A stretch of 62,140 nucleotides of DNA from Aequorivita viscosa (GTDB lineage Bacteria > Bacteroidota > Bacteroidia > Flavobacteriales > Flavobacteriaceae). The stretch lies in NCBI RefSeq assembly GCF_900106795.1, contig NZ_FNNS01000022.1:1-62140 (forward strand). The letters run 5' to 3'. Shown piece after piece: positions 19,321 to 51,402 of the stretch. A program made the translations under genes and the position numbers. Every line of letters begins with the position of its first letter. Position 1 is the stretch's first letter. The notes under the pieces are model-generated. The model ran no database searches. It saw only the letters and a list, made by a program, of their open reading frames with translations, and was not told the DNA's origin.

Positions 19321-19435
19321 GACGTAGGACGGCAGGACATAAGACGTATGACCAAAGCAACCAAGTCTTATATCCTATGTCTTATAGCGCAGCGGTCTTA
19401 AGTCTAACATTTAATATCTGAAACCTAATGTCTGA
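19321..19435. repeat. Inverted GAC/GTC heptad array between paaA and paaB
   Basis: GAC at 19321, 19328, 19336, 19343 and 19350, then GTC/ATC-type anchors at 19365, 19372, 19379, 19395, 19402, 19409, 19416, 19423 and 19430. Steps are 7 bp except for one 8 and one 16 (7+9). The bases between anchors vary. The array starts 8 bp after the paaA stop, and its last unit contains the paaB ATG (19428). The two halves are complementary in anchor and can fold as one long imperfect hairpin. Confidence 0.85.
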
Positions 19436-19721
19436 AAACAAAAAAAACTGGCCCCTTTGGGAAATATTTGTCCGTAGTAAAAATGGATTAGAGCATCGTC
19501 ACTTCGGAAGCTTACATGCTGCCGATGCCGATATGGCTCTAGAAAATGCCCGTGATGTGTATACCCGTCGAAACGAAGGTGTAAGTATTTGGGTTGTAGA
19601 ATCAAAAAACATAACTGCATCAAACCCCGAGCACAACGCCGAAATGTTTGAACCCGCAAAAGATAAAATATACCGACATCCTACTTTTTATGATTTGCCG
19701 GATGAGGTGAAGCATATGTAG
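19428..19721 (+). CDS. paaB: Phenylacetyl-CoA epoxidase subunit PaaB
   Basis: Small structural subunit needed for assembly of the PaaABCE complex. At 97 residues it has the normal length. Signatures: WPLWEIFVRSKNGLEHRHFGSLHAADADMALENARDVYTRR and WVVESKNITAS. Its start codon lies in the last unit of the upstream heptad array, so its ribosome-binding region is made of repeat sequence. Its TAG stop is directly followed by a dRS3-like palindrome. The next paa gene is about 580 bp away, behind the GIY-YIG gene. Confidence 0.95.
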   Translation: MSENKKNWPLWEIFVRSKNGLEHRHFGSLHAADADMALENARDVYTRRNEGVSIWVVESKNITASNPEHNAEMFEPAKDKIYRHPTFYDLPDEVKHM

Positions 19722-19741
19722 TTTCCCGCGAAGGCGGGAAT
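19722..19741. repeat. dRS3-like palindrome, abuts paaB stop
   Basis: TTTCCCGCGAAGGCGGGAAT, followed by CTCTGG. It starts on the base after the paaB stop codon. Confidence 0.9.
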
Positions 19742-19815
19742 CTCTGGGGCTCATCAAAAAAACGGGTGGTAAATTTAAAGCCGAGAAGTAAACGGAGAAT
19801 TGAATGAGATTCCCA

Positions 19816-19835
19816 TTTCCCGCGAAGGCGGGAAT
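19816..19835. repeat. dRS3-like palindrome
   Basis: TTTCCCGCGAAGGCGGGAAT, followed by CCAGAG, which is complementary to the CTCTGG after the previous copy. It lies in the non-coding stretch between paaB and the GIY-YIG gene. Confidence 0.9.
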
Positions 19836-19926
19836 CCAGAGTGATAATTGCAATGCTTATTTTGATTAATTGGGTATTTGACCAATAAAGATCCTAGTTG
19901 AATGCGACGAAATAGAAATTAAGATT

Positions 19927-20307
19927 ATGGGCGGAGCACGAAAAGATTCCCACCTACGTGGGAATGAAGTATGGTATGTGTACATTATGACCAACAAATC
20001 GAATAATGTTCTTTACATCGGAGTGACGGACGATATTGATTCTCGGGTTGAAGAACATAAACACAAAGTGTATCCACAGAGCTTTACGGCGAGATACAAT
20101 TGTAATAAATTAATTTATTTCGAGGAATTTGATAATGGACATAAAGCTTCTCAACGTGAAAAGCAAATGAAGAAATGGAACCGTGAATGGAAAATAAAAT
20201 TGATTGAAGAAATGAATCCAAGTTGGTTTGACTTAAGCTTAAATTGGAACAATATAGATTTGATTTATAAAACAAAAAGGATTTCCCCAAATAAACTGAA
20301 ATTATGA
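19927..20307 (+). CDS. GIY-YIG nuclease domain protein
   Basis: A stand-alone GIY-YIG nuclease of the short UPF0213-like type. The core is WYVYIMTNKSNNVLYIGVTDDIDSRVEEHK: the two Tyr-containing strands, YIG, and the catalytic Arg in DSRV. It is followed by ASQREKQMKKWNREWKIKLIEEMNPSWFDL, the conserved second half with a Glu. The reading frame from ATG 19927 passes through a dRS3-like palindrome (residues about 7-13, DSHLRGN) before the domain, so the true start may be downstream (in-frame GTG at the VYIM segment). It sits between paaB and paaC with repeats on both sides. Its job is unknown; acting on the palindromes is a hypothesis. Confidence 0.85.
   Translation: MGGARKDSHLRGNEVWYVYIMTNKSNNVLYIGVTDDIDSRVEEHKHKVYPQSFTARYNCNKLIYFEEFDNGHKASQREKQMKKWNREWKIKLIEEMNPSWFDLSLNWNNIDLIYKTKRISPNKLKL
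19946..19965. repeat. dRS3-like palindrome inside GIY-YIG reading frame
   Basis: ATTCCCACCTACGTGGGAAT with compensating changes in both arms (CAC/GTG). It is read in frame as DSHLRGN. Confidence 0.88.
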
Positions 20308-21083
20308 ATAATGAACAGGGAGATTCCCGCCTTCGCGGGAATTTATACAACTACATCCTAACAATCGCCGATAACTCACTAATTCTCGGCCAACGAATGG
20401 GCGAGCTTTGCGGGCATGGGCCAAGCTTGGAAACAGATATTGCTTGCACGAATATTTCATTAGACTTATTGGGGCAAGTGCGCAGTTATTACCAATATGC
20501 TGCAAAAATCGCTGGTGATGGCAGAACCGAAGACGATATTGCTATGCTTAGAACCGAGCGCGAATATGTAAACGTACTATTGGTGGAACAACCTAATACA
20601 GACTTTGCCTATACCATCGCTCGTCACTTTTTATTCGATATTTTTCATTTCCTTTTTCTAACAGAATTGCAAAAAAGCAAAGACCTAACATTAGCAGCCA
20701 TTGCAAAAAAATCATTAAAAGAAGTAAGTTATCATGAACGATTCACTTCAGATTGGATAAAAAGATTGGGAGATGGTACCGAAGAAAGTCACCAAAAAAT
20801 GCAAACTGCAATTGATGATTTATGGGCTTATACCGACGAATTTTTCAATCCAACTTCTGCTGAAAAAGCTATGGCCGAAGAGGGAATTGGAGTAGATATT
20901 ACTGCCCTGAAGAAAAAATATTACGATACCGTTAGTGAAGTTTTAGAAGAAGCTACACTGAAAGTTCCTGAATCAAAATACTTTCATAAAGGCGGAAAGC
21001 AAGGAATACATTCCGAGCATATGGGTTTTTTGCTTGCGGAATTGCAGTATATGCAGAGAACATATCCAAATTTGGAGTGGTAA
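20304..21083 (+). CDS. paaC: Phenylacetyl-CoA epoxidase structural subunit PaaC
   Basis: Ferritin-like partner of PaaA lacking catalytic iron; it stabilises and tunes the catalytic subunit. 259 residues. Signatures: LYNYILTIADNSLILGQRMGELCGHGP, LDLLGQVRSYYQYAAK and SYHERFTSDWIKRLGDGTEESHQKMQ. The N-terminus is abnormal: between the usual MNN and LYNYIL there are ten extra residues, EQGDSRLRGN, most of them encoded by a dRS3-like palindrome (20323-20342), so the gene seems to carry an in-frame insertion. Its ATG overlaps the end of the GIY-YIG gene by 4 bp (stop TGA at 20305-20307). Its TAA stop is followed at once by another palindrome. Confidence 0.95.
   Translation: MNNEQGDSRLRGNLYNYILTIADNSLILGQRMGELCGHGPSLETDIACTNISLDLLGQVRSYYQYAAKIAGDGRTEDDIAMLRTEREYVNVLLVEQPNTDFAYTIARHFLFDIFHFLFLTELQKSKDLTLAAIAKKSLKEVSYHERFTSDWIKRLGDGTEESHQKMQTAIDDLWAYTDEFFNPTSAEKAMAEEGIGVDITALKKKYYDTVSEVLEEATLKVPESKYFHKGGKQGIHSEHMGFLLAELQYMQRTYPNLEW
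20323..20342. repeat. dRS3-like palindrome in the paaC 5' coding region
   Basis: ATTCCCGCCTTCGCGGGAAT, read in frame as part of DSRLRGN at PaaC residues 7-13. Confidence 0.92.
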
Positions 21084-21103
21084 ATTCCCGCGTAGGAGGG
21101 AAT
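21084..21103. repeat. dRS3-like palindrome, abuts paaC stop
   Basis: ATTCCCGCGTAGGAGGGAAT, beginning on the base after the TAA of paaC (21081-21083); one stem mismatch. Confidence 0.88.
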
Positions 21104-21117
21104 CTCTTCACCAACTT

Positions 21118-21143
21118 CCTGCAAGGTCTCCAGACCTTGTAGG
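21118..21143. repeat. CCTGCAAGGTCT hairpin
   Basis: CCTGCAAGGTCT and AGACCTTGTAGG form a 12-bp stem with one G-T pair, between paaC and paaD, 19 bp before the paaD ATG. Member of the AGGTCT family of hairpins. Confidence 0.7.
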
Positions 21144-21161
21144 TATTGAAAAAGATAGATA

Positions 21162-21665
21162 ATGACCCAATTAGACAAACCGAACATACAAGATCATTTA
21201 TATTCGATTCTGGAAACCGTTCCAGATCCAGAGATTCCTGTGATCTCTTTATTGGATCTTGGTGTTATTCGCACCGCAGTTGAGATTGATGGAATTGTTT
21301 ATATCAAAATGACGCCTACCTACTCGGGTTGTCCCGCCACCGATGTGATGTCGGATGACATTAAGGCTGCATTCGCCAGAGAAGGTAAAACTGCCAAGGT
21401 CGAGCTTATCCTTTCTCCAGCTTGGACCACCGATTGGCTTTCGGAAGAAGGACTGCGGAAAATGGAGGAATATGGGATCGCACGTCCACTATCTGAATCA
21501 CACGACAAGGACGTTTTGCTGGGAGGAAAGAAATTAGTGAAATGCCCACAATGCGGCAGTACGCAAACCCACTTAGTGAGCCAATTCGGTTCCACGCCAT
21601 GCAAAGCTCTCTTTAAGTGTGATGACTGTCACGAGCCCTTTGATTATTTTAAATGTTTAAAATAA
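21162..21665 (+). CDS. paaD: PaaD, SUF-like (MIP18/DUF59) protein of the phenylacetate epoxidase
   Basis: Needed for epoxidase activity in vivo, probably in metal-centre assembly. 167 residues. The N-terminal DUF59 domain shows ILETVPDPEIPVISLLDLGVIR and MTPTYSGCPATDVM with its conserved Cys. The C-terminal zinc-ribbon-like part has CPQCGS and FKCDDCHE. Its TAA stop shares its last base with the first base of a dRS3-like palindrome. Confidence 0.95.
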   Translation: MTQLDKPNIQDHLYSILETVPDPEIPVISLLDLGVIRTAVEIDGIVYIKMTPTYSGCPATDVMSDDIKAAFAREGKTAKVELILSPAWTTDWLSEEGLRKMEEYGIARPLSESHDKDVLLGGKKLVKCPQCGSTQTHLVSQFGSTPCKALFKCDDCHEPFDYFKCLK

Positions 21666-21684
21666 TTCCCGCGAAGGCGGGAAT
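21665..21684. repeat. dRS3-like palindrome, overlaps paaD stop
   Basis: ATTCCCGCGAAGGCGGGAAT; its first A is the last base of the paaD TAA stop. Followed by CTCGAC. Confidence 0.92.
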
Positions 21685-21767
21685 CTCGACTTTTCTAAAT
21701 GGGTCGAGATTTATAGCAATGCTTCAAAAAAAGCTAGAGAACGATAAACATGTGAAATATTCACACT

Positions 21768-21790
21768 ATAATCGGAAAATATCCGATTAT
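21768..21790. promoter_or_regulatory. Upstream AbiEi-type operator (ATAATCGG-N7-CCGATTAT)
   Basis: Perfect 8-bp inverted half-sites around a 7-base spacer, just upstream of the -33 box of the AbiE promoter. The same half-sites recur at 21831-21853, centre-to-centre 63 bp. Confidence 0.82.
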
Positions 21791-21793
21791 CTA

Positions 21794-21823
21794 TTTGAGT
21801 TTCTTCAAAAAACTGTATATTTG
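21794..21823 (+). promoter_or_regulatory. abiE promoter (TTTG-N18-TATATTTG)
   Basis: TTTG at 21794-21797 and TATATTTG at 21816-21823 match the Bacteroidota promoter, and it lies exactly between the two operators. Predicted transcript start is near 21830, about 40 nt before the AbiEi ATG. Confidence 0.75.
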
Positions 21824-21830
21824 TGGAGGC

Positions 21831-21853
21831 ATAATCGGTTATAATCCGATTAT
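21831..21853. promoter_or_regulatory. Downstream AbiEi-type operator
   Basis: ATAATCGG-N7-CCGATTAT again, covering the expected transcription start. Identical half-sites to 21768-21790. Confidence 0.82.
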
Positions 21854-21871
21854 GTTCTGTAGAATATACAA

Positions 21872-22510
21872 ATGACCTTTAGAAGATCCATACAAAATTA
21901 TGCAGATGCTCCCTTAACCCATCAGCTTGTTTCCGATGTGTTGGCAGAGTATCGGCGTCCGAATGACAAAATCAATGATTTGGTGCAGAGTGGATTTTTA
22001 ATTTCCCTAAGAAGAGGATTATACGTTTCAGGACCAGAGTTGGATTTGCCACTTCCCCATCTTTTTGTAATCGCTAATCACCTTCGAGGCCCAAGTTATG
22101 TTTCCCTAGAAACGGCACTTGCGCATTGGGAAATGATTCCGGAACGGGTTTATGAAATCAATTCCATAACTCTAAAAACTTCCCATCTTTATAACACGCC
22201 TATTGGTAACTTCACCTATCGCCATCTCGACGTGCCTTATTATTCTTTTGGTCTGCAACGTGTAGAACTGGGTGATAACCAGTTTGCGCTTATGGCCTCT
22301 CCCGAAAAAGCTATTTGCGACAAAATAATCACCACATCAGGAATTACCTTCCGTAGTCAATCCCAAACGATAGCTTTTTTATTGGAAGATTTGCGTATTG
22401 ATGAGGAGACGTTAGAGAATTTAGATTTAAATGCCATCTCTAGTTGGATAAAAGATGCTCCAAAAGCATCCAGTCTGCAAATGTTGGTCAATACACTTCA
22501 AGGCTTATGA
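21872..22510 (+). CDS. AbiEi-type antitoxin / transcriptional autorepressor
   Basis: Antitoxin of a type IV toxin-antitoxin and phage abortive-infection system; 212 residues. The N-terminal winged-helix region is DLVQSGFLISLRRGLYVSG (about 45-65). The middle part contains VIANHLRGPSYVSLETALAHWEMIPE and the C-terminal part ALMASPEKAICDKII; both are AbiEi-like signatures. The family is known to repress its own promoter by binding two inverted repeats, and two identical inverted repeats flank the promoter here. The toxin gene overlaps its stop by 4 bp. The unit sits inside the paa locus after paaD and has no metabolic link to it, so it is probably a horizontally acquired insertion. Confidence 0.85.
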   Translation: MTFRRSIQNYADAPLTHQLVSDVLAEYRRPNDKINDLVQSGFLISLRRGLYVSGPELDLPLPHLFVIANHLRGPSYVSLETALAHWEMIPERVYEINSITLKTSHLYNTPIGNFTYRHLDVPYYSFGLQRVELGDNQFALMASPEKAICDKIITTSGITFRSQSQTIAFLLEDLRIDEETLENLDLNAISSWIKDAPKASSLQMLVNTLQGL

Positions 22511-23361
22511 TAAAGGAATGGATGGACACGTATCAACCTGCGAATGAGGAAGATGCACTCTCCGCTTTGCGCGAGATTATGCAGGAAATCGCCCTTGCTG
22601 GTTTATCACGTACAGATTTTTTTAAGAAGGCGGCCTTTTATGGAGGTACGGCTCTAAGGATTTTTCATGGATTGGACCGATATTCAGAAGACTTGGATTT
22701 TTCCTTACTCTCTGTGGATAAGAAGTTTTCTTTAGAGCCATATTTTCAAGCCATACAGGACGAGTTTAACAGTTTGGGGATGAATGTAAGTCTGCGGCAA
22801 AAGAGTAAGATCCATAAAACGCCAATCGAGTCTGCATTTCTTAAATCTGAAACCCTTTGGAAGGAATTGGTTCTGGAGGATGTAGTTGAGCAACTGGGAA
22901 TACGGTCAAATAAGAATATAAGAATCAAAATTGAGGTGGATCGGAATCCACCTATGCATTTTCAAACAGAGGAGAAATTATCGCTTCGGCCATTTTCCTT
23001 TTATGTGAAATGTTTTGACTTGCCTAGTTTATTTGCGGGTAAAATGCACGCCCTTCTTTTTCGGAAATGGCAAAACCGCGTAAAAGGTCGTGATTGGTTT
23101 GATATGGAGTGGTATATCCGCAAAGGTGTTCCTCTAAACCTAACCCATTTTCTTCAGCGTGCCCAAGATTCCAATGATTGGCAAAAGCCGACAATTTCAA
23201 GGGAAGAGTTTTTTGATTTATTGCGAGATAAAATCAAAACTACATCTATTGACAAAGTGAAAGCGGATGTACGGCCATTTATTCGAAACAATGAAAAGCT
23301 AGAAATATGGAGCCCTCAGTATTTTCAAGATTTGGTGGATTTGTTGAAGGTGAAGGAATAG
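22507..23361 (+). CDS. AbiEii-type nucleotidyltransferase toxin
   Basis: Toxin of the AbiE system, a nucleotidyltransferase-fold protein that in studied relatives modifies tRNA acceptor ends. 284 residues from ATG 22507, which overlaps the antitoxin stop as ATGA; a longer frame from 22444 is less likely. Motif I is FYGGTALRIFHGLDRYSEDLDFSLL (GG-(S/T)x9-10-DxD type, about residues 41-63). The later block SLFAGKMHALLFRKWQNRVKGRDWFDMEWYI carries the conserved Lys and Asp residues. Intact by length and motifs. Confidence 0.88.
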   Translation: MIKEWMDTYQPANEEDALSALREIMQEIALAGLSRTDFFKKAAFYGGTALRIFHGLDRYSEDLDFSLLSVDKKFSLEPYFQAIQDEFNSLGMNVSLRQKSKIHKTPIESAFLKSETLWKELVLEDVVEQLGIRSNKNIRIKIEVDRNPPMHFQTEEKLSLRPFSFYVKCFDLPSLFAGKMHALLFRKWQNRVKGRDWFDMEWYIRKGVPLNLTHFLQRAQDSNDWQKPTISREEFFDLLRDKIKTTSIDKVKADVRPFIRNNEKLEIWSPQYFQDLVDLLKVKE

Positions 23362-23451
23362 GAAGTATATTCAAACAAAATAGCTTCAATCATAAAACTT
23401 ATATATCTAATTTGTGAAAAATAGGACAAAAAAATAATTTCGAAATTTACT

Positions 23452-23937
23452 ATGGAATTTTATTCACCAGATAAAGAATTAAAGGATGCTTTTAATGCAG
23501 AAATTAAAGATGCTGATTACATTTCTGCATTATATAAATTTTGCCAAAAATCAGATATTCTTTATTCTGAAGTTCAATTTTTTCCTCATAATTTATTAAC
23601 GGCCTGGAATGAATATGTAGAAATTGCGCAGTTTGGGGATGATTTGGACGAGGAATTCCATATGGATATTCGTAGAGAAATACTTTTGGAAATAGAAAAT
23701 GAAAAATCGTTCATAAAATTTTCCGATCATCAGACTTTTCTTAAAATTCTGTATTCTATTGATGAAAAATTCAAAGCAGTAACCTTTATACCATCCGAAC
23801 TGAAAAATGAGGAAAAATGGTGGCACGCATCAATCTATAAAAAGGGTTCTATGGAGTATATTGAAAATATTGAAAAATATATTTACGATCGCTTTGGAAA
23901 AAAATTATCATTAAAGGAACAAATAGAATTAATTTAA
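23452..23937 (+). CDS. Hypothetical protein beside the AbiE module
   Basis: A 161-residue acidic, aromatic-rich soluble protein (MEFYSPDKELKDAFNAEIKD...) with no signal peptide, membrane helix or motif I recognise. The coding sequence is more AT-rich than the paa genes around it. It starts 90 bp after the AbiE toxin. Position suggests cargo or a third component of the inserted defence unit, or an immunity-type protein, but neither can be shown from sequence. Confidence 0.6.
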   Translation: MEFYSPDKELKDAFNAEIKDADYISALYKFCQKSDILYSEVQFFPHNLLTAWNEYVEIAQFGDDLDEEFHMDIRREILLEIENEKSFIKFSDHQTFLKILYSIDEKFKAVTFIPSELKNEEKWWHASIYKKGSMEYIENIEKYIYDRFGKKLSLKEQIELI

Positions 23938-23964
23938 ACTACCCAATAATAAGTTGTAAAAAAT

Positions 23965-24768: not shown

Positions 24769-24873
24769 CATTTGCGAATTTATTGAAATAAAAAAAGATG
24801 ATTGTTCATTTATCAATCTGTATTGAAAAGTTTCTTTCATATCAATTAACCATCAAATTTCCACAACTCTTTC

Positions 24874-24881
24874 TATTTTTG
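24874..24881 (+). promoter_or_regulatory. -7 box TATTTTTG before paaG
   Basis: Perfect TAnnTTTG 69 bp before the paaG ATG, so paaG probably starts a new transcript after the AbiE/thioesterase block. No copy of the AACTAACA/TGTTAGTT operator is seen here. Confidence 0.5.
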
Positions 24882-24949
24882 TAAAAACACCCTCGGCAAA
24901 GCAGTATCTTGCTGCATTAAACCAGAAATTCATTTTTTAAACAAACTAT

Positions 24950-25729: not shown

Positions 25730-25837
25730 GAAGTAAGAATAACGAACATCGAACCGCAGAATGATGAAGTAACGAAACTTCGATATTCAGTATTCGTAAT
25801 TCAATATTCGATACTAAAATATAGTATTCAACATTCT
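25730..25837. repeat. Inverted GAA/TTC heptad array upstream of four-helix-bundle gene
   Basis: GAA at 25730, 25737, 25744, 25751, 25759, 25766 and 25774, then TTC at 25779, 25786, 25793, 25800, 25807, 25827 and 25834. Nearly all steps are 7 bp. It begins directly after the paaG stop and ends 13 bp before the start of the four-helix-bundle gene. Confidence 0.85.
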
Positions 25838-25850
25838 GAAATTTAAAAGT

Positions 25851-26220
25851 ATGGCAACTTACAAATACGATTTAGAGGAACGACTCATTAAATTTGCCGT
25901 AGACGTAATTATCTGCTGTGGAAAAATGGATGGAAGTTTTGCTGCACAGCACTTATCCAAACAGCTAATTCGTTCAGCCACTTCCGCTGCCTTAAATTAT
26001 GGAGAAGCTCAAAGTGCAGAATCCGCAAGAGATTTTCTTCATAAAATGAAACTCTGTTTAAAGGAATTGAGAGAGTCATTAGTGAATTTGAAAATTCAAA
26101 AAGGAGCAGATTTGATTAAAGATATTGCGCGGCTTGATTATCTTTTTAAAAAAAAACAATGAACTTATTGCGATTTTTGTTTCAAGTATTCGTACTTCAC
26201 AGAATAAAAATAAATCCTAA
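25851..26220 (+). pseudogene. S23/Avd-type four-helix-bundle protein, frameshifted in A9
   Basis: Member of the small four-helix-bundle family (TIGR02436) that includes the 23S-rRNA intervening-sequence proteins and the Avd accessory protein of diversity-generating retroelements. The first frame (25851-26162) gives 103 residues with LIRSATSAALNYGEAQSAESARDFLHKMKLCLKELRESL. It stops just after a run of nine A (26148-26156). If one A is removed, the frame continues as NNELIAIFVSSIRTSQNKNKS to TAA at 26220, which restores the usual family C-terminus. So it is a frameshifted gene, a phase-variable one, or one using slippage. Heptad arrays lie on both sides. Confidence 0.8.
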
Positions 26221-26258
26221 ATTTTAAAATTAAGAATATACTTAGATACAGCTTTTAC

Positions 26259-26293
26259 TTCAAAATTCAGTATTCAAAATTCTTTATTCGATA
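26259..26293. repeat. TTC heptad array downstream of four-helix-bundle gene
   Basis: TTC at 26259, 26266, 26273, 26280 and 26287, five units at exact 7-bp steps, just before the paaH gene. Two or three further TTC steps (26181, 26189, 26196) fall within the restored C-terminus of the four-helix-bundle gene. Confidence 0.85.
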
Positions 26294-26309
26294 TTAAAAA
26301 AGTAGTAAT

Positions 26310-35136: not shown

Positions 35137-35220
35137 GATTAATGATTGTTGTTTAACGATTTTTGATTCGAAAGGGAAAATCAAAAATCGTCAATCGTTA
35201 ATCTAAAATCAAAAATCAAA
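35137..35220. repeat. Inverted GAT/ATC heptad array upstream of paaJ
   Basis: GAT-type anchors at 35137, 35144, 35151 (GTT), 35158 and 35165, then ATC at 35180, 35187, 35194, 35201, 35208 and 35215. Every step within each half is exactly 7 bp, while the four other bases vary. The ATG of paaJ is the next codon, so the whole leader of that gene is repeat sequence. Confidence 0.92.
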
Positions 35221-36432
35221 ATGGAAGCATATATAATTGACGGAATAAGAACGCCAATAGGAAGTTATCAAGGTTCATTAAGCACAATTAGAACAGACGA
35301 TTTAGCAGCTTTGGTAATTGCAGAAGTCGTAAAACGAAATCCAAACATTCCAACAGAAGCTTATGACGATGTTATCCTGGGCTGTGCTAATCAAGCTGGA
35401 GAAGATAATAGAAACGTTGCTAGAATGGCATCCCTTTTAGCAGGATTGCCAGTAACAGTTCCAGGCGAAACAGTAAACAGGCTTTGTAGTAGTGGCCTAT
35501 CAGCAATTATCCACGCCAATCGTGCTATAAAAGCAGGCGATGGCGATTTGTTTATAGCAGGCGGTGTGGAGCACATGACTCGCGGACCATATGTGGTAGC
35601 AAAGCCATCCAAAGCTTTTGGAACAGATGCAAAAATGTATGATTCTAGCTTCGGCTGGCGATTTGTTAATCCTAAAATGCACGACATGTATGGCACAGAT
35701 GGAATGGGAAATACTGCTGAGAACCTAGTCGAAAAGTATAACATTTCGAGAGAAGATCAAGATAAATTTGCTCACTGGAGCCAAATGAAAGCTGCCAAAG
35801 CACAAGAAAATGGTCGATTGGCAAAAGAAATTGTTACGGTTCAAATTCCCCAACGTAAAAAGGATCCTATTAAATTTTCAAAAGATGAATTTGTAAAGCC
35901 CGGCACCACTTTAGGGATTTTAGGGAAATTACGCCCTGCCTTTAAAAGAGATGGCGGTAGTGTTACAGCTGGAAATTCTTCTGGTTTAAACGATGGAGCG
36001 GCAGCAACAATTATTGCTTCCGAAGATGCTGTAAAGAAGTATAATCTAAAACCACTAGCGAGAATTGTTAGTTCTGCGGTTGTGGGTGTTGAACCTAAAA
36101 TCATGGGTATCGGTCCCGTGGAAGCTGCAAACAAAGCTTTGAAAATAGCAGGTCTAACTATGGACGACATGGATGTTATTGAGCTTAATGAAGCATTCGC
36201 CGCTCAAGCTTTGGCTTGTACCCGAGCTTGGGGCTTAGCAGATGATGATTCACGACTTAACCCCAACGGCGGTGCAATCGCAATTGGGCATCCACTTGGA
36301 GTTACTGGTGCAAGAGTCGCATATTCAGCAGCTTTGGAATTAAAAGAACAGAATAAAAGATATGCGTTAGTTACTATGTGTATTGGCGTTGGACAAGGTT
36401 ATGCTTCAATAATCGAACGAATTCCTGCGTAG
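35221..36432 (+). CDS. paaJ: 3-oxoadipyl-CoA/3-oxo-5,6-dehydrosuberyl-CoA thiolase PaaJ
   Basis: Thiolase acting twice in the pathway: on 3-oxo-5,6-dehydrosuberyl-CoA and on 3-oxoadipyl-CoA (to acetyl-CoA and succinyl-CoA). 403 residues. Nucleophile Cys in VNRLCSSGLSA (about 91), His in GGAIAIGHPLGVTGARV (about 360) and Cys in TMCIGVGQG (about 390). The last three residues and the TAG stop lie inside a decayed dRS3-like palindrome, so the natural C-terminus (usually ending near IIERV) seems to have been replaced by repeat sequence. Confidence 0.94.
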   Translation: MEAYIIDGIRTPIGSYQGSLSTIRTDDLAALVIAEVVKRNPNIPTEAYDDVILGCANQAGEDNRNVARMASLLAGLPVTVPGETVNRLCSSGLSAIIHANRAIKAGDGDLFIAGGVEHMTRGPYVVAKPSKAFGTDAKMYDSSFGWRFVNPKMHDMYGTDGMGNTAENLVEKYNISREDQDKFAHWSQMKAAKAQENGRLAKEIVTVQIPQRKKDPIKFSKDEFVKPGTTLGILGKLRPAFKRDGGSVTAGNSSGLNDGAAATIIASEDAVKKYNLKPLARIVSSAVVGVEPKIMGIGPVEAANKALKIAGLTMDDMDVIELNEAFAAQALACTRAWGLADDDSRLNPNGGAIAIGHPLGVTGARVAYSAALELKEQNKRYALVTMCIGVGQGYASIIERIPA

Positions 36433-40248: not shown

Positions 40249-41007
40249 ATGAGCGGAGAACCATACGTAAAACAAAATACCGAAAACGGAATCGCAACCA
40301 TCGAATTTTTTCACCCTGCACACAATAGTTTGCCAGGAGATTTGTTGGCAAAACTTGCAAATACGATTACCGAAGCTGGAAATGACGATAAAATAAAAGT
40401 AATAATTTTAAAAAGTGGTGGCGACAGAACCTTCTGTGCAGGCGCCAGTTTCACTGAATTGATAAGCATCAACGATGCCGAAACTGGAAAAGTATTTTTC
40501 AGTGGGTTTGCAAATGTGATTAATGCAATGCGCAAATGCCCTAAATTTATCATTGGTAGAATTCAAGGAAAAACAGTTGGTGGTGGAGTAGGAGTGGCAT
40601 CTGCGACAGATTATTGTATGGCAACCAAGTTTGCTGCAATTAAACTGAGTGAACTGAATGTGGGTATTGGTCCATTTGTAGTCGGTCCAGCTGTAGAGCG
40701 CAAACTAGGTCTAAGTGGAATGAGTCAAATAGCCATCGATGCCAATACTTTTTACGATGCCGAATGGGCAAAACAAAAAGGATTGTACAATCAGGTTTAT
40801 GAGTCTGTAGAAGAATTGGACGAAGCAGTTCAAAAGTTCGCAAAAGGGCTTTGTAACTACAATCCAGAAGCAATGAAAGAAATGAAAAAAGTTTTCTGGA
40901 GCGGCACCGAAAATTGGGATGAACTTTTAGCCGAAAGAGCTGTTATTTCAGGAAGATTAGTACTTAGTGATTTCACGAAAGAAACGCTGAAGAGATTTGA
41001 GGAGTAG
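40249..41007 (+). CDS. paaF: Enoyl-CoA hydratase/isomerase family protein, PaaF-like
   Basis: Crotonase-fold enzyme, 252 residues, presumably hydrating 2,3-dehydroadipyl-CoA. Oxyanion-hole segments are RTFCAGASFTELI and QGKTVGGGVGVASATDYCM. The loop after SELNVGIGP reads FVVGPAVERKLG instead of the usual PGxGGTQ, so this is a divergent subgroup, and PaaF is assigned by position rather than by catalytic residues. Its TAG stop is the first unit of a TAG-anchored heptad array. Confidence 0.75.
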   Translation: MSGEPYVKQNTENGIATIEFFHPAHNSLPGDLLAKLANTITEAGNDDKIKVIILKSGGDRTFCAGASFTELISINDAETGKVFFSGFANVINAMRKCPKFIIGRIQGKTVGGGVGVASATDYCMATKFAAIKLSELNVGIGPFVVGPAVERKLGLSGMSQIAIDANTFYDAEWAKQKGLYNQVYESVEELDEAVQKFAKGLCNYNPEAMKEMKKVFWSGTENWDELLAERAVISGRLVLSDFTKETLKRFEE

Positions 41008-41039
41008 TTTTTAGAGAGAAGTTTGTAGAGGGTAGAATG
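41005..41039. repeat. TAG heptad array, upstream flank of second four-helix-bundle gene
   Basis: TAG at 41005, 41012, 41026 and 41033 with AAG at 41019, all exact 7-bp steps. The first TAG is the stop codon of the paaF-like gene. The start of the four-helix-bundle gene follows. Confidence 0.8.
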
Positions 41040-41426
41040 CAGCATACAATGATAAGTCAATATCATTTTAAATTTGAAGAGTTGCATGTGTATCAAAAAG
41101 CCATTGAGTTTGGAGAATTGGTACATTCGCAAATAGCTGCTTTTCCTAAAATCGAAGATTATAGACTATCTGCTCAGTTCGCTCGTGCGGCAAATTCTAT
41201 ATCATTTAACATAGCTGAAGGTTCAGGAAGTTCAGATGCAAGTTTTTTAAATTATCCTAGAATATCAAGAGATAGCTCACGAGAAGGCCTAACGGCAACT
41301 ACTAAAGCATTAGTAAGAAATTATATAACACTCGAACAATGTGAGAAAAACAGAGGGTTGTTGGTAGAAATAAATAAGATGCTAGCAGCTTTAATGAAAC
41401 ACCTAAATAATAAAAATAGTCCCTAA
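41037..41426 (+). CDS. S23/Avd-type four-helix-bundle protein
   Basis: A 129-residue (or 125 from the internal ATG 41049) member of the TIGR02436 four-helix-bundle family: FKFEELHVYQKAIEFGELVHSQ, YRLSAQFARAANSISFNIAEGSGSSDASFLNYPRISRDSSREGLTATTKALVRNYI. The Ala/Arg-rich helix and IAEGSG loop are typical. This subgroup forms pentameric barrels in the Avd/bIVP relatives and binds nucleic acid there; function here is unknown. Heptad arrays of complementary anchors (TAG upstream, CTA downstream) flank it, and its stop lies within the downstream array. No reverse transcriptase is nearby, so it is not an Avd of a retroelement. Confidence 0.85.
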   Translation: MQHTMISQYHFKFEELHVYQKAIEFGELVHSQIAAFPKIEDYRLSAQFARAANSISFNIAEGSGSSDASFLNYPRISRDSSREGLTATTKALVRNYITLEQCEKNRGLLVEINKMLAALMKHLNNKNSP

Positions 41427-41452
41427 CCCACTATTCTCTACTCCCTAAAAAC
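41423..41452. repeat. CTA heptad array, downstream flank
   Basis: CTA at 41423, 41431, 41438 and 41445 (steps 8, 7, 7), i.e. the reverse complement of the TAG array at 41005. The four-helix-bundle gene stop TAA (41424-41426) is in the first unit. GTTTTTAG at 41008 and CTAAAAAC at 41445-41452 are exact inverted ends of the block. Confidence 0.8.
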
Positions 41453-45739: not shown

Positions 45740-46015
45740 TTTTATGAAATGCATATCTCTTATTTAAGTAACTGATATTCATTTAATCGTATTTTTTCTG
45801 TATAGAATATTGTTGATAGTGTTTAAAATCATAACTTTGTGAAATCACAATCCGCTTTTGAGATGTGTTAAAATCAATGTTTTGTCCTGAAATACAAATC
45901 CGATTAGGATAAATTATTGAAAATAATACTGTCAAAAGAACGCTTTGAAAGAGATTGTCCAAGAATTGGGCAAGGAAGAAAATACTAGCAAAAATCAACC
46001 TAAAACCAAACAACA

Positions 46016-47626
46016 TTGAAAACAATTTCTACAATTATCTGTTTTTTAACCGTGTTTATAGCTTCTGCGCAATGGACAACAGATACAGACCAAAATACGT
46101 TCGTTGCTGAATCAGGAGAATTAGATATTCATGCTCATGGCACTTCAGATGGCCAGACCTACGTGGTTTATTGGAAAACTGTTGACGCGCCTACCAACGT
46201 AGAGCTTCGCTTGCAAGTTATGGATGCCGATGGCTACCAAATGTTGGGAGAGGATGGAATCTTGGTGAGTGATCAACTTCCTATGGGCGGCTATACCGTA
46301 TCAATGAGTGCTGTGGTAGATGCAAATGATCATTTTTATATTGGTGTAACAGGTACTGGAGGCGGAGATCCTGCTTTTGTATATAAAATGGACACAAATG
46401 GTAACCACTTATGGGGTACAAACGGAATTCAAGTGGGCAGTGGTAATGTTGTTACTGTTTTGCCATTGTCTTCTGGCGGCGCTGTTGTGAGTTGGCTTGG
46501 TTCCTCGGGAGGCTTAATGCAGAAGTTTGACGAAAATGGAGTTGCCTTATGGCCAAGTGATAAACCAATTCAGCAAGGCTCTAGCACAACAGTTCCAGGA
46601 AACCTGTTTGAACTTTCAGATGGCGACTATATTGTGGTTTTCCATTCCTTGCTATTTGGAATCAACTCAAATCTTTATGCACAACGATATGATTTAGATG
46701 GGAATGCTATTTGGACAAATGCAATTCAAATTTCAGACAGAGCAACCTCTTTTAATCGATCTTATACAGGTTTACAAGATGGCGATAATGTATATATGGG
46801 ATATTTTGCTTCCGAAGGAATACGTTTTGACTCGTACTTACAGCGAATTAACCCTGACGGAACTTTACCGTGGGGAATTAATGGTTCCGACTTTGACATT
46901 AATGAAACAGATTATGAAATGGAAACCGAGATTGCATTTCAAGAAGGATCTCAATACGTTTGGGCTGTTTCTACCTATATGAATTCCAACCAAAGTGAGC
47001 GAGGGGAGTATGTTCAAAAATTTAATAAAGAATCTGGAGCACGGGAATTGACAGATAATGCCAAAGTAGTATTTCCGATAGGCACCAATAAATCTCATGC
47101 GGGGCAACTTCGTTTAAGAGATGACAGCCCTCTTTTCCTAATGGAGGAAGGAGATAATAACGGAGTGTCTCCAACCACGTTAAACGCTGTGTATCTTGAT
47201 GAAAATGGCGATTTTATGTGGCCACAAGAAACACGTCCTGTTGCCACTTTTGCAGCTAGTAAAAATCGGGTCAATTTTACAAAAGAAGGAAATATGCAAA
47301 ATGTAGCAGTTTTTGCTGAAGACAAAGGAACTGGACTAAAAATTTATGCTCAGAATATAGTAGATGACACTGTGGGTGTTGAAGAGTTTTTTAATGCAAC
47401 TGTATTTTTTGCCAACCCTGTGCCAGAAGAAATGGTTATTAATAGTAATGCATCTATTGAAGAGGTTTCCGTATTTAATGTTTTAGGACAACAAGTATTT
47501 AATTCTAAATACAATCAGCAGAATACGGTTTCAATAAACACCCAAAACTGGACTTCAGGAATTTATTTTATGAATATTTCAACAGATAAAGGTTTCCAAA
47601 AGGGAGCAAAGCTGATAAAGTTATAG
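46016..47626 (+). CDS. Secreted protein with type IX secretion C-terminal domain
   Basis: A 536-residue exported protein: signal peptide (MKTISTIICFLTVFIASAQ), a large region of propeller-like repeats (ADGYQMLGEDGILVSDQLPMGGYTVS, MDTNGNHLWGTNGIQV, FDENGVALWPSDKPIQ, DLDGNAIWTNAIQIS, NPDGTLPWGINGSDF), and a ~75-residue T9SS type A sorting domain (NSNASIEEVSVFNVLGQQVFNSK ... SGIYFMNISTDKGFQKGAKLIKL). It should pass the outer membrane by the PorSS machinery. The start codon is TTG; no in-frame ATG gives a signal peptide. Function of the repeat part is unknown. Confidence 0.85.
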   Translation: MKTISTIICFLTVFIASAQWTTDTDQNTFVAESGELDIHAHGTSDGQTYVVYWKTVDAPTNVELRLQVMDADGYQMLGEDGILVSDQLPMGGYTVSMSAVVDANDHFYIGVTGTGGGDPAFVYKMDTNGNHLWGTNGIQVGSGNVVTVLPLSSGGAVVSWLGSSGGLMQKFDENGVALWPSDKPIQQGSSTTVPGNLFELSDGDYIVVFHSLLFGINSNLYAQRYDLDGNAIWTNAIQISDRATSFNRSYTGLQDGDNVYMGYFASEGIRFDSYLQRINPDGTLPWGINGSDFDINETDYEMETEIAFQEGSQYVWAVSTYMNSNQSERGEYVQKFNKESGARELTDNAKVVFPIGTNKSHAGQLRLRDDSPLFLMEEGDNNGVSPTTLNAVYLDENGDFMWPQETRPVATFAASKNRVNFTKEGNMQNVAVFAEDKGTGLKIYAQNIVDDTVGVEEFFNATVFFANPVPEEMVINSNASIEEVSVFNVLGQQVFNSKYNQQNTVSINTQNWTSGIYFMNISTDKGFQKGAKLIKL

Positions 47627-47645
47627 CGATTTTATCCCCAAACTA

Positions 47646-47680
47646 TGAAGAAACCTTCCTGTATTGGGAAGGCTTCTTCA
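47646..47680. terminator. Hairpin between convergent genes
   Basis: TGAAGAAACCTTCC / GGGAAGGCTTCTTCA, a near-perfect 14-bp stem with a short loop, 20 bp after the T9SS gene; only a weak T-run follows. Confidence 0.65.
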
Positions 47681-47715
47681 TTTAGATGTATTAGTAGGCT
47701 GTCAACTTTCCTTCT

Positions 47716-48627
47716 TTAAAAATAAAAGTAAAGCCCAGCATTCACGAAATGTGTATTAACCACAAATGGTATTACTTCATCGTTATTGATAAAAGAAAGG
47801 TCATTTTCGTATTCAGGGATATAACTCACAATAACTCCGAGCGATTTTTTTTCGTCTAAATCGTATAACAGTCCAATTTTAGGAGTCCAAAAAGCACTGC
47901 CTTTAGTCCGATCTATTTTATAAGTGCTAAAATTTCCTTTGTATTGGTCACGGGCCAGTCCAGCTGCAATCCCAACTATAGGATGAATAGTTCCATTTTC
48001 ATTAAAGTGATATTCCGCTCCTAGATTCCACCTGTAAGTGTTTTTATTAAAGTTTGTCTTAGAAGTAGAATTGCTAAAATTTTTATCTCCTGAAAAAGCA
48101 GCACTTACCTCCATAGTAAAATGTAATTTTCCTTGTAAGCTCCCTAAAAAACCAGGAGTCGCAGCCAGACCAAAACTAAGTTGTGCTTGTGTTAAGTTTT
48201 CAAATTTATCTAACTGAAAGAAGCTAATACGGTTTACAGAAGCCCCTACACTTCCAAAAAGCTTGAATTGATCTCCTTTAAAGTCAGCAGCTTTTTTAAT
48301 TTCTTTGTCCGTGGGTTTAAATGGGGTGTAGTCGCAATTGTTGTATTCTATTACTGTTTTCACCAAAGCCCGTTCAGTTATTTCAGTTAAATTAAATACA
48401 CTTTGCCGCGTTTTTTCACAATCATTAAATAGTACCGAAAGTGTTCCTTGAATATGTTCTTCAGCATTAGGTCTAATGTCAATCGTCTTTACAGTCCCAT
48501 CATTCTTCTTTATTTCGTAGACTCCTTTTTGTAATTTAGTCAGCGTAGCTTGACCAACAACAAGTTCTTGGGCTTGCATTCCGAAATTTGTGATCAAGGC
48601 AAGTAGAAGTAGTTTAATCAATTTCAT
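47716..48627 (-). CDS. Outer-membrane beta-barrel protein
   Basis: A 303-residue protein with a signal peptide (MKLIKLLLLALITNFGMQAQ), a ~100-residue N-terminal periplasmic part, and a C-terminal barrel of alternating strands (FKLFGSVGASVNRISFF, AQLSFGLAATPGFLGSLQ, LHFTMEVSAAFSG, YRWNLGAEYHFNENGTIHPIVGIAAGLA, PKIGLLYDLDEKKSLGVIVSYIP) ending in the aromatic GLYFYF typical of porin C-termini. Size suggests 8-10 strands. Ligand unknown. Confidence 0.75.
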   Translation of the reverse strand: MKLIKLLLLALITNFGMQAQELVVGQATLTKLQKGVYEIKKNDGTVKTIDIRPNAEEHIQGTLSVLFNDCEKTRQSVFNLTEITERALVKTVIEYNNCDYTPFKPTDKEIKKAADFKGDQFKLFGSVGASVNRISFFQLDKFENLTQAQLSFGLAATPGFLGSLQGKLHFTMEVSAAFSGDKNFSNSTSKTNFNKNTYRWNLGAEYHFNENGTIHPIVGIAAGLARDQYKGNFSTYKIDRTKGSAFWTPKIGLLYDLDEKKSLGVIVSYIPEYENDLSFINNDEVIPFVVNTHFVNAGLYFYF

Positions 48628-48723
48628 CTGTACCTAAATTAGATATTATAAAAATGAGTCGTTGAATGGAAATAGCTAAAGAAATAGCTTTAAAGCCAAA
48701 GCAGTTTTTACATCAATGATATT

Positions 48724-49260
48724 TTACTTTATCTTACTTCCTGGAGGATATTCAGCTAAAATCTTCATCACTATTTCCCGAATTCGTTCCTCTTTTTTCT
48801 CCATATTTTGAGTTACCAAGTCGGCAGTTCCCATTCCTTGCCATACTAAATTATTGGTTTTGGCATCAATGAGGTCAATAAACAGTGTTCCTTCTGCAGT
48901 ACGTGATACATTACTAGTGTTATAACTGCCGTACCAATATGGATTCCAACCCCAACCATACCCGAAGTTGTTATTGTACACATCGACACGCTCTCTCTCT
49001 TTCGTAAAAATGCTAACGAGCAAATCCGGGATTTCAGATTTTATCAGTCCCTTCGTCGTCAATTCACTTTCAATTGCACGAAGGATACGCTTTTTATCTA
49101 AGTCGTTTATCTTCGCCTTATCAATTCCTGGTTTGTAAAATGCAAAGGAATTATATTGATTAAAATTTACTTCCTTGTCAAAATCTGTAGCCACACGAAC
49201 GGTGGAACAAGAAGTGAAAACAAAGAGAAGTAGTAGCGGTAAAAACTTGAATGCTTTCAT
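48724..49260 (-). CDS. DUF4136 lipoprotein
   Basis: A 178-residue lipoprotein with lipobox LLLFVFTSCSTV (Cys about 18). DUF4136 blocks are VRVATDFDKEVNFNQYNSFAFYKPG, KKRILRAIESELTTKGL and EGTLFIDLIDAKTNNLVWQGMGTADL. The Tyr/Gly/Trp-rich loop FGYGWGWNPYWYG is also typical. Function unknown. It starts 12 bp after the HutU stop on the same strand, so probably co-transcribed. Confidence 0.88.
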   Translation of the reverse strand: MKAFKFLPLLLLFVFTSCSTVRVATDFDKEVNFNQYNSFAFYKPGIDKAKINDLDKKRILRAIESELTTKGLIKSEIPDLLVSIFTKERERVDVYNNNFGYGWGWNPYWYGSYNTSNVSRTAEGTLFIDLIDAKTNNLVWQGMGTADLVTQNMEKKEERIREIVMKILAEYPPGSKIK

Positions 49261-49271
49261 GGTTTTATTTT

Positions 49272-51254
49272 TTAATTGAACAATGTGTCGTCAACATAAT
49301 TAGGAAGCGTAACTTGTAATTGGGGATTGTTTTCCATCGCTCTTTTTATTGCAAAAACAGCACCTTCATTCCGTGCCCAACTGCGGCGTGAAATTCCGTT
49401 ATTTACATCCCAAAACAGCATGTTTTCCAAACGTTGTTGTGAGTCTTTACTACCATCAAGAACCATTCCGAAACCTCCGTTAATCACTTCGCCCCAGCCA
49501 ACACCGCCACCGTTGTGGATGCTCACCCAAGTTGCGCCACGGAAGCTATCGCCAATTACGTTTTGAATGGCCATGTCTGCGGTAAATCGGCTTCCATCAT
49601 AAATGTTTGATGTTTCGCGATAGGGCGAATCTGTTCCTGAAACATCGTGATGGTCTCGCCCTAAAATAACTGGACCTATTTTTCCTTCAGAAATAGCTTT
49701 GTTGAATTCCGAAGCAATTTGTACACGTCCATCGGAATCTGCATATAGAATACGGGCTTGCGAACCAACTACCAATTTATTTTCCTGAGCACCTTTTATC
49801 CACGTTATATTGTCTTGCATCTGTTGCTGGATTTCTTTAGGCGAATTTTTCATCAAATTTTCCAGGACTTCAGTTGCAATTTCATCCGTTTTTTCAAGAT
49901 CTTCTGGTTTTCCTGAAGCACACACCCAACGGAATGGTCCAAAACCAAAATCAAAGCACATTGGTCCCATAATGTCTTGCACATAAGAAGGGTATTTAAA
50001 CTCTTTGTTTTTTTCTTCTGAAAGAATATCTGCACCTGCACGAGAAGCTTCTAAAAGGAACGCATTTCCATAGTCGAAAAAGTAAGTGCCTCTTTCAGTA
50101 TGTCTGTTTATAGCTTTTACTTGTCGGCGTAGACTTTCTTGAACTTTCTCTTTAAAAAGTTCGGGGTTGCTACCCATCATTTTGTTAGATTCTTCATAAG
50201 TCATTCCAGCTGGATAATATCCTCCTGCCCAAGGGTTATGGAGCGAAGTTTGATCGCTTCCAAGGTCAATCTGAATATTTTCGTCAGCAAATTTTTCCCA
50301 TACATCTACAATGTTTCCGTCATACGCTATTGAAACTGTTTCACTATTTAAAACCGCTGCTCTAACTCGCGTACACAAGGCGTCTACATCTGAGATTACT
50401 TCATCTACCCATCCTTGAGAATGTCTGGTTTTTGTAGCTTTTTTATTTACTTCAGCACACACTGTTACACATCCAGCAATATTTCCTGCTTTGGGTTGTG
50501 CGCCACTCATTCCGCCAAGGCCAGAGGTTACAAATAGTCCGCCTTTTGGTTCCTTTTTAATTTTCCGGAAACCGTTTAAAACTGTAATTGTAGTTCCGTG
50601 AACAATACCTTGTGGGCCAATATACATATAGCTTCCAGCTGTCATTTGGCCGTATTGAGTAACGCCTAGCGCATTGAATTTCTCCCAATCATCCTGACTC
50701 GAATAATTCGGAATCATCATACCATTGGTTACAACCACTCGTGGGGCGTCTTTATGCGAAGGAAACAACCCCATTGGATGACCAGAATACATTGCCAAGG
50801 TTTGCTCGTCGTTCATTTCGGAAAGGTATTTCATCGTTAGGAGATACTGTGCCCAGTTTTGGAAAACAGCGCCATTTCCACCATAGGTAATGAGTTCGTG
50901 AGGATGTTGGGCGACGGCGTAATCCAAATTGTTTTGAATCATCAGCATAATTGCTTTTGCCTGCTCGCTTTTGCCTGGATATTCGTTTACGGGTCGGGCA
51001 TACATTTTATAATCTGGACGAAAACGGTACATGTAAATGCGTCCGTATTTTTCTAATTCTTCTTTAAATTCTGGAAGAAGTGTGGCGTGATGCTTTGGTT
51101 CAAAATACCGAAGTGCATTTCGAAGTGCGAGTTCTTTCTCATCTTCTGAAAGAATCTCTTTTCGCTTTGGCGCGTGATTCACGGTTGTATCATAAGCCTT
51201 CTTCTCTGGAAGCGTTGAAGGAATGCCTTGTTGTATTTGTTCTTTGAAATTCAT
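49272..51254 (-). CDS. hutU: Urocanate hydratase
   Basis: NAD+-dependent hydration of urocanate to 4-imidazolone-5-propionate in histidine degradation. 660 residues, the longer form seen in Bacteroidota. Signatures: ITYGGNGAVFQNWAQYLLTMKYLSEM, HPMGLFPSHKDAPRVVVTNGM, GLGGMSGAQPKAGNIAGCVTV, DQTSLHNPWAGGYYPAGMTYEESNKMM and FDFGFGPFRWVCASGKPEDL (active-site Cys). No hutH, hutI or hutG is present in the window. A CTA heptad array lies in the region upstream. Confidence 0.96.
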   Translation of the reverse strand: MNFKEQIQQGIPSTLPEKKAYDTTVNHAPKRKEILSEDEKELALRNALRYFEPKHHATLLPEFKEELEKYGRIYMYRFRPDYKMYARPVNEYPGKSEQAKAIMLMIQNNLDYAVAQHPHELITYGGNGAVFQNWAQYLLTMKYLSEMNDEQTLAMYSGHPMGLFPSHKDAPRVVVTNGMMIPNYSSQDDWEKFNALGVTQYGQMTAGSYMYIGPQGIVHGTTITVLNGFRKIKKEPKGGLFVTSGLGGMSGAQPKAGNIAGCVTVCAEVNKKATKTRHSQGWVDEVISDVDALCTRVRAAVLNSETVSIAYDGNIVDVWEKFADENIQIDLGSDQTSLHNPWAGGYYPAGMTYEESNKMMGSNPELFKEKVQESLRRQVKAINRHTERGTYFFDYGNAFLLEASRAGADILSEEKNKEFKYPSYVQDIMGPMCFDFGFGPFRWVCASGKPEDLEKTDEIATEVLENLMKNSPKEIQQQMQDNITWIKGAQENKLVVGSQARILYADSDGRVQIASEFNKAISEGKIGPVILGRDHHDVSGTDSPYRETSNIYDGSRFTADMAIQNVIGDSFRGATWVSIHNGGGVGWGEVINGGFGMVLDGSKDSQQRLENMLFWDVNNGISRRSWARNEGAVFAIKRAMENNPQLQVTLPNYVDDTLFN

Positions 51255-51325
51255 GTTTATGTTTTTTCTCGCAAAGCCGCAAAGTCGCCAAGCTTTATTG
51301 CGTTGTCAAATTATTTTTTTAATTT

Positions 51326-51402
51326 TCTCTAATCTCTAATCTCTAATCTCTAATCTCTAATCTCTAATCTCTAATCTCTAATCTCTAACCTCTAACCTCT
51401 AA
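51326..51402. repeat. Tandem heptamer array (TCTCTAA)x9 + (CCTCTAA)x2
   Basis: Eleven uninterrupted 7-mers. The last unit overlaps the stop codon of the small DUF5522 gene (51399-51401 on the minus strand), so the repeat supplies the stop. Same CTA anchor as 201, 11623 and 41423. A CGCAAAG-type stretch (51264-51290) precedes it. Confidence 0.95.

Follow-up and report, generated by a model that had tools for sequence, protein, structure and literature searches.

7-bp-phased arrays in Aequorivita viscosa as probable ends and remnants of a small intercistronic element carrying an S23-family gene

Cyanobacterial short tandemly repeated repetitive (STRR) sequences are heptanucleotide repeats, and miniature inverted-repeat transposable elements (MITEs) and repetitive extragenic palindromic (REP/REPIN) sequences are short inverted stretches of intergenic DNA that may be mobilized in trans. 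According to the accessible part of PMC4692102, the heptanucleotide repeats found in Xanthomonas (GGGAATC) and in Nostoc (GGGGA(C/T)T) are near-exact copies of a single motif, and two Xanthomonas genomes contain 70 and 75 inverted heptamer pairs. The passages available from PMC4679880 describe TAACTGA heptamer repeats, note that a relative in Aequorivita lacks heptamer arrays, and quote the work of Mrazek et al. on long simple sequence repeats. The 23S rRNA intervening sequence (IVS) of Coxiella burnetii is described, in the available text of PMC4990558, as an element of roughly 430 nt in which an S23p open reading frame (ORF) lies between inverted repeats; it is termed selfish there, and mobility is suggested. 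Here, we report that a 62,140-nucleotide stretch of the Aequorivita viscosa genome (contig NZ_FNNS01000022.1, positions 1 to 62,140; hereafter, the window) contains two S23-family ORFs located between 7-bp-phased arms, as well as similar arrays lacking an ORF. These arrays are probably the termini, the ORF-less remnants, or the non-autonomous forms of a small intercistronic S23 element, which we read as mobile, mostly sense-oriented, and akin to the 23S rRNA IVSs. The components are known separately, as rRNA IVSs with S23p and as heptamer repeats. A search of titles and abstracts, with most subscription papers outside its coverage, found nothing joining S23 proteins with heptamer arrays; the passages of PMC4692102 and PMC4679880 at hand do not tie heptamer repeats to S23 genes, and neither "S23" nor "four helix" appears in the available text of the former.

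The first element of the window, on the forward strand like the second, starts immediately 3' of the stop codon of an enoyl-CoA hydratase gene with a GAA-phased 5' arm (positions 25730 to 25768), followed by a TTC-phased array (25779 to 25837), a divergent S23/IVP family ORF of 103 amino acids (25851 to 26162), and a TTC-phased 3' arm (26254 to 26296) located just upstream of the next start codon. These three arrays were identified by in-phase reading and by the cluster test described below. The second element consists of a TAG-phased 5' arm (41000 to 41039), an S23/IVP family ORF of 129 amino acids (41037 to 41426), and a CTA-phased 3' arm (41423 to 41452), both arms being identified by in-phase reading. 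Profile matches identify the two ORFs as genes for S23 (23S-rRNA-intervening-sequence) family proteins, with scores of 37.5 and 78.8 bits for PF05635 (cut-off, 33.8; 2.9e-9 and 4.4e-22) and of 60.6 and 76.9 for TIGR02436 (cut-off, 24; 1.5e-16 and 1.3e-21). Solved structures of two relatives represent the S23 fold: 2gsc, which is XCC0516 of Xanthomonas campestris, and 2rld were both deposited with five chains, and five four-helix bundles are named in the title of the cited work. The window elements and the 23S rRNA IVSs have in common the protein family and the location of the S23 ORF within inverted repeats. Unlike the IVSs, the window elements sit between protein genes rather than in an rRNA gene, and the IVS stem, as far as it is described in PMC4990558, is 28 bp long and nearly fully complementary, whereas the arms described here are phased, degenerate, and built on many anchors. 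Likewise, the published heptanucleotide repeats share with the arrays of the window the 7-nt unit, the intergenic location, and the occurrence of inverted pairs, but are, in the available descriptions, near-exact copies of one motif rather than anchored and degenerate; near-exact tandem heptamers were found in the window at 199, 11623, and 51326 and not at the degenerate anchored sites.

The first-pass annotation of the window, made from sequence alone, had listed arrays in which a trinucleotide anchor recurs every 7 bp amid variable filler. Each of the listed sites could be read in phase, with the expected anchor present. A strict test, scoring clusters of at least four identical trinucleotides at an exact period, detected nine clusters at period 7, compared with an average of 1.1 over 20 first-order Markov resamples and with 0 to 5 clusters in the window for each of the other periods from 4 to 13. 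Seven of the nine correspond to arrays or half-arrays that had been annotated, the remaining two being AAA at 7910 and GGA at 21443; the arrays at 8084, 19321, 41005, and 41423 and the GAT half at 35137, which contain 8-bp steps or mismatches, were judged by eye. For the genome (G000; 3.54 Mb in 62 contigs), array statistics were obtained from sampled stretches. In 21 of them (421,762 bases, including the window, with a sampling that favoured contigs with pattern matches), intergenic identity reached 0.3486 at lag 7, the remaining lags between 2 and 13 giving 0.3221 to 0.3365; lesser increases were seen at lags 14 and 21, and coding DNA showed no lag-7 peak. Lag-7 segments in these stretches numbered 56 in intergenic and 18 in coding DNA (non-harmonic lags, 3-14). 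Intergenic arrays with a 7-bp period were in excess of resampled sequence, of other periods, and of coding DNA. Altogether, 67 arrays were recovered from 736,506 sampled bases, including 11 in the 334,744 bases of stretches L050 to L070. Their units were diverse (TCTCTAA, TCTCTAG, AGAGGTT, TGACCAC, and GGTTGTC), with a common period and no common motif, in agreement with the initial proposal that the arrays follow a common rule (period, anchor, and inversion) rather than a common sequence. We also found no named class covering the arrays as a whole, as had been stated.

Matches to PF05635 were present in all 28 genomes of the genus (5 to 21 matches each). A phylum-wide sample of 198 genomes contained matches in 157, whereas 14 control genomes had none. 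We read both sides of 139 S23 loci, later 149, comprising a genus set of 29 (out of 30, L128 being excluded because its S23 frame was not found), a phylum set of 30, and a named set of 80, which is biased to one S23 type because it was chosen as the best 80 of 583 relatives; L133 and L225 are one locus, counted twice in both totals. L133, from congener G003, matches a locus of Aequorivita aurantiaca without any difference, 60-bp flanks included. In 100-base flanks, lag-7 identity was 0.404, 0.386, and 0.347 for the named, genus, and phylum sets, respectively, compared with approximately 0.25 to 0.31 at lags divisible by neither 7 nor 8. Identity was also raised at lag 8 (0.322, 0.366, and 0.313), because some lineages use period 8. 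Alignment of the reverse-complemented 5' flank with the 3' flank of the same locus gave median scores of 16.5, 18, and 15 (named, genus, and phylum sets), compared with 9 for swapped loci; scores of at least 15 were obtained for 45 of 78, 17 of 28, and 17 of 30 own pairs and for 7 of 156, 2 of 56, and 1 of 60 swapped pairs, flanks shorter than 80 bases having been dropped. With a fixed cut-off, arrays at lag 7 or 8 were detected in 202 of the 298 flanks (period 7 in 144, period 8 in 58), and the control lag pairs 5-6, 9-10, and 11-12 gave 13, 6, and 2. At least one arm was present at 125 of 149 loci, including 77 with arrays in both flanks. Polarity was fixed, with G-rich 5' arms (85/103) and C-rich 3' arms (86/99), and 65 of 83 degenerate arrays had column conservation that was more uneven between anchor and filler than under a uniform-mismatch null, a figure to which common descent of copies can contribute. 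Outside Bacteroidota, arms were recognized by eye in an Acidobacteria metagenome-assembled genome and in Geobacter, Thiohalocapsa, Luteimonas, Pontiellaceae, and Nitrospira, the S23 gene of Luteimonas being bordered by GGGAATC-type arms. S23 ORFs therefore sit between phased arms across many phyla. The first-pass annotation was right on the array rule and on the behaviour of arrays as units, and had overlooked the S23 ORFs between the arms, the spread far beyond Flavobacteriaceae, the period-8 sister form, and the published heptanucleotide repeats.

The S23 ORFs are mainly in the sense direction of their neighbours: 113 of 124 were co-oriented with both near neighbours and 2 were opposed to both, for baselines of 80% and 72% same-strand pairs. 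Arm type tracks S23 type, since arm similarity correlated with S23 similarity among pairs with less than 70% identity (Mantel r, 0.188; 0 of 2,000 permutations; 138 of 139 loci kept after exclusion of one protein of <90 amino acids, 137 with a signature). The same linkage was apparent at a single location, the thiolase slot, whose genes we take to be fadB and fadA. Three genomes had one S23 subtype there, with TCT-type arms, and three others had a second subtype, with GAC/GTC arms. The neighbours of the two subtypes displayed 90 to 97% protein identity, indicating that the arms accompany the S23 gene and not the slot.

Comparison of three orthologous slots among congeners confirmed that arrays are present or absent as units. 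Slot 1, between genes presumed to be paaA and paaB, was occupied in the 28 genomes by an S23 element of 432 to 440 bp (8 genomes), an ORF-less inverted array of 73 to 114 bp, similar to that of the window (13 genomes), a 1-bp junction (3 genomes), approximately 80 bp without a clear array (3 genomes), or other ORFs (1 genome). No transposase was found in the slot-1 elements, which contain only an S23 ORF between the arms. In slot 2, between genes for an enoyl-CoA hydratase and a 3-hydroxyacyl-CoA dehydrogenase, the match pattern indicated S23 in 5 of 28 genomes; the 9 genomes read among the remaining 23 showed inverted heptad arrays (3 genomes), TAA-ATG junctions (3 genomes), or other sequences (3 genomes). 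In slot 3, between genes for an enoyl-CoA hydratase and a hexapeptide protein, S23 was present in 14 of 26 scorable genomes (4 by continuous match and 10 by the coordinates of PF05635 matches within the gap), and the 11 genomes read among the other 12 had inverted heptad arrays (4 genomes), 3-bp junctions (4 genomes), or other sequences (3 genomes). Array calls in slots 2 and 3 were made by eye. At orthologous slots, S23 elements thus alternate with inverted arrays that lack an ORF and with bare junctions between a stop and a start codon. On a tree of the slot-1 flanking genes, based on a short alignment, the states were scattered, a bare junction (G002) grouping with a hairpin (G026; support, 0.998), an S23 element (G020) with a hairpin (G004; 0.944), and another S23 element (G008) with a bare junction (G011; 0.866). 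Target duplication was not seen at the bare junctions inspected by eye. The slot-1 genome with other ORFs (L093, G005) has 590 bp containing two small ORFs that are not S23-like in appearance and that we presume may form a toxin-antitoxin-like pair, and one slot-3 genome (L247, G024) carries a GC-rich inverted repeat of a different type in place of an S23 element or heptad array.

Some elements were far less diverged between species than the adjoining genes, in two cases. In slot 1, synonymous divergence (dS) of S23 was below that of the flanks in 21 of 21 pairs from seven of the eight elements (G020, whose copy is 432 bp long compared with 433 to 440 bp, was omitted). The extreme pair, G007 and G014, had an S23 dS of 0.028 compared with 0.61 for the flanks and 0.40 for the upstream gene alone; relative to G007, the 3' arm of G014 contains one additional 7-bp unit. 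At the thiolase slot, L122 (G009) and L123 (G027) differed with a dS of 0.081 in S23 and of 1.29 and 2.46 in the neighbours; nucleotide identity rose from 81.7% for the upstream gene to 89.3% over the 5' arm plus leader, 97.0% over the ORF, and 100% over the 3' arm of 84 bases, and was 84.4% downstream. The ratio of nonsynonymous to synonymous divergence (dN/dS) in slot 1 was 0.02 to 0.08 in 20 of 21 pairs and 0.26 in the closest pair, and it was 0.03 to 0.07 in 10 pairs at another slot. S23 is therefore under strong purifying selection at two slots, which is compatible with recurrent transfer of an active element or with a host function; we lean to the former because low divergence is limited to the element and because arms are linked to S23.

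The element that we propose spans about 430 to 550 bp in the copies measured. A phased 5' arm is followed by an ORF for an S23/IVP four-helix-bundle protein and then by a 3' arm, which has the reverse complement of the 5' anchor and the same period as the 5' arm (7, or 8 in some lineages). The unit would transfer between species into the same slots. S23 would recognize the phased anchors, in DNA or in the transcript, and tolerate the filler. Cutting or joining would be carried out by a host enzyme, since the element has no further ORF. ORF-less arrays would be decayed or trans-mobilized forms, and exact heptamer arrays might arise from arms through slippage by 7-bp units. At the RNA level, pairing of the two arms might enclose the S23 message in the manner of an IVS. 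Unlike in MITEs, REP/REPIN sequences, and insertion sequences, neither a transposase nor a target duplication was seen here, nor any fixed sequence at the termini; the arms vary between elements, in place of the fixed terminal inverted repeats of an insertion sequence or MITE.

Several observations weigh against this proposal. Transposase, nuclease, reverse transcriptase, and target duplication were all unseen in the element. By the fixed cut-off, 24 of 149 loci had no array and 48 had a single arm. Control gaps not adjacent to S23 in the same loci contained lag-7/8 arrays in 33 of 85 cases, compared with 137 of 200 S23-adjacent gaps, a contrast that is modest because arrays cluster and thereby contaminate the control; arrays at lags 6/9 occurred in 4 of 85 and 11 of 200 gaps, respectively. 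In this genome, ORF-less arrays far outnumber S23 genes and most arrays have no hairpin partner. Inversion, which the annotation had described as frequent, held at the sites it named and around S23 genes, but not for array-bearing intergenic regions genome-wide, strong hairpins being present in 6 of 35 array-bearing and 12 of 70 array-free sampled regions, without enrichment. Random 20-kb stretches of S23-rich genomes displayed no lag-7 excess: lag-7 or lag-8 segments numbered 6 in 200,000 bases from 10 genomes with 8 to 15 S23 copies and 0 in 164,850 bases from 9 S23-free genomes, with no excess of lag-7 identity in either set, indicating that abundant ORF-less arrays are not a general companion of S23. 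The GTC pattern was not special, the reversed pattern giving 64 matches versus 63 (at most two mismatches); the other reversed-pattern control (53 versus 50 matches) was uninformative because reversal of the unit merely rotates the identical repeat. Covariation in the RNA stem was scant, with a double change in 1 of 8 predicted pairs. This poor covariation, together with RNA fold z scores of -2.5, -2.3, and -6.7 for three ORF-less or partial arrays, led us to favour recognition of phased anchors over a precise stem. As to divergence, the 5' arm of the thiolase pair was only 89% identical, S23 dS was only mildly under that of the flanks in most slots (in 8 of 10 pairs relative to the upstream gene in one slot), and the reverse was found in one slot (2.74 versus 1.42 and 1.54). 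A slower synonymous rate of S23 may account for part of the dS gap; since dS was only mildly lower in most other comparisons, this explanation fails for the two extreme cases and may add elsewhere. Short-tract homologous recombination could be the vehicle of the unit. The flanks of L285 are direct, not inverted, and both arms are alike in one direction or mixed at L285, L153, and L183.

S23 could alternatively be a host RNA-binding regulator, with the phased arrays as its intercistronic leader sites and its own arms as autoregulatory sites, nothing being mobile and presence or absence reflecting site turnover. Low dN/dS at both slots, the sense orientation, the nearness to start codons, the ORF-less arrays near start codons of other operons, and the translational role suggested for TAACTGA heptamers in the available part of PMC4679880 all fit such a system. 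We nonetheless regard it as unlikely, as it does not accommodate the restriction of low divergence to the element, the occupation of one slot by two S23 subtypes each with its own arms, the bare junctions of close relatives, or the antisense orientation of some copies on cyanobacterial plasmids. It is more improbable still that the arrays are simply 7-nt microsatellites, generated by favoured 7-nt replication slips and subsequently decaying, with an incidental link to S23. Slippage was proposed by Mrazek et al. (as quoted in the accessible passages of PMC4679880) and would explain the many-unit exact heptamer arrays of this genome and the one-unit difference between the slot-1 3' arms of G014 and G007. 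It fails to predict that S23 lies between the arms, that polarity is fixed, that the two arms of a locus pair, that arm type is linked to S23 type, and that columns are uneven, bearing in mind the contribution of common descent to the last. Finally, the filler could be diversified by reverse transcription, S23 playing the part of Avd in the diversity-generating retroelements. In favour of this reading is a weak match of S23 to the Avd model NF033474 (4.8e-6; 26.8 bits, under the cut-off of 80), suggesting a related four-helix-bundle fold. It nevertheless has next to no likelihood, since the element shows no reverse transcriptase ORF, no template-variable repeat pair, and no adenine-specific change (mismatch rates by consensus base in 113 arrays, 0.166 for A, 0.132 for C, 0.230 for G, and 0.168 for T). 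Adenine-targeted change in the filler was accordingly not supported, the adenine rate not being singled out.

Extending the proposal of a mobile intercistronic S23 element, we tentatively raise a broader possibility, about which we remain doubtful: S23 elements may form a bacteria-wide mobile class with ends coded by phase and not by sequence, in which an S23 oligomer would read a short anchor every 7 (or 8) bases in the two arms, tolerate any filler, and drive homing into operon stop-start junctions. Heptanucleotide repeats in Bacteroidota, Cyanobacteria, and Xanthomonadaceae would then largely be ends and debris of such elements, and the rRNA IVSs would be one outlier. The proposed intercistronic element itself unites heptanucleotide repeats of unexplained cause, S23/IVP proteins, and rRNA intervening sequences, which have hitherto been described apart. 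Phased arrays are a candidate S23 substrate, so that the function of S23 becomes testable, and S23 genes within operons, including cas operons, may be passengers and not partners.

Arms also surrounded S23 genes on nine cyanobacterial plasmids and one Gemmatirosa plasmid (10 of 44 records fetched). Among the plasmid S23 genes listed (L283 to L292), Nostoc and Calothrix predominate, and this group is a known carrier of heptamer STRR repeats. At L285 and L292, two cyanobacterial plasmid loci, S23 ORFs with phased flanks lie within cas operons, in a cas6-cas4 gap and in a cas10-cmr3-type gap. The accessible part of PMC3936711 reports 18 S23 genes in cas loci. No S23 match was found among 50,697 phage records (E, 1e-5), and 16 S23 loci were found on viral contigs, several of the 10 whose flanks were read showing arms; phages are therefore not an evident vehicle of S23.

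The window contains two ORF-less inverted arrays on the forward strand, both identified by in-phase reading. The first (19319 to 19434; RNA fold z, -2.47), with a GAC 5' half and a GTC 3' half, occupies the whole gap between two genes and reaches into the next start codon. Its GTC half is broken at 19382 to 19392 by the non-periodic AGCGCAGCGG, with AGCGAAGCGG in orthologous arrays, and an insert of this kind (AGCGAAGCGG/AGCGCAGCGG) interrupts the GTC array in 6 of 7 GAC/GTC-type sequences. The second, with a GAT half followed by an ATC half (35137 to 35221; z, -6.68), lies between genes for a zinc peptidase and a thiolase. Four further arrays, without an S23 ORF and with no strand assigned, are a lone GTC-phased array (8084 to 8118; in-phase reading) and near-exact heptamer arrays of TCTAACC (199 to 268), TCTCTAC (11623 to 11689), and TCTCTAA (51326 to 51404). 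Period-8 arrays of CGCAAAGN at 11562 to 11612 and 51270 to 51293 adjoin the exact heptamer arrays at 11623 and 51326, and the former has an inverted TTTGCGAC partner, the period-8 sister form thus occurring in the same genome.

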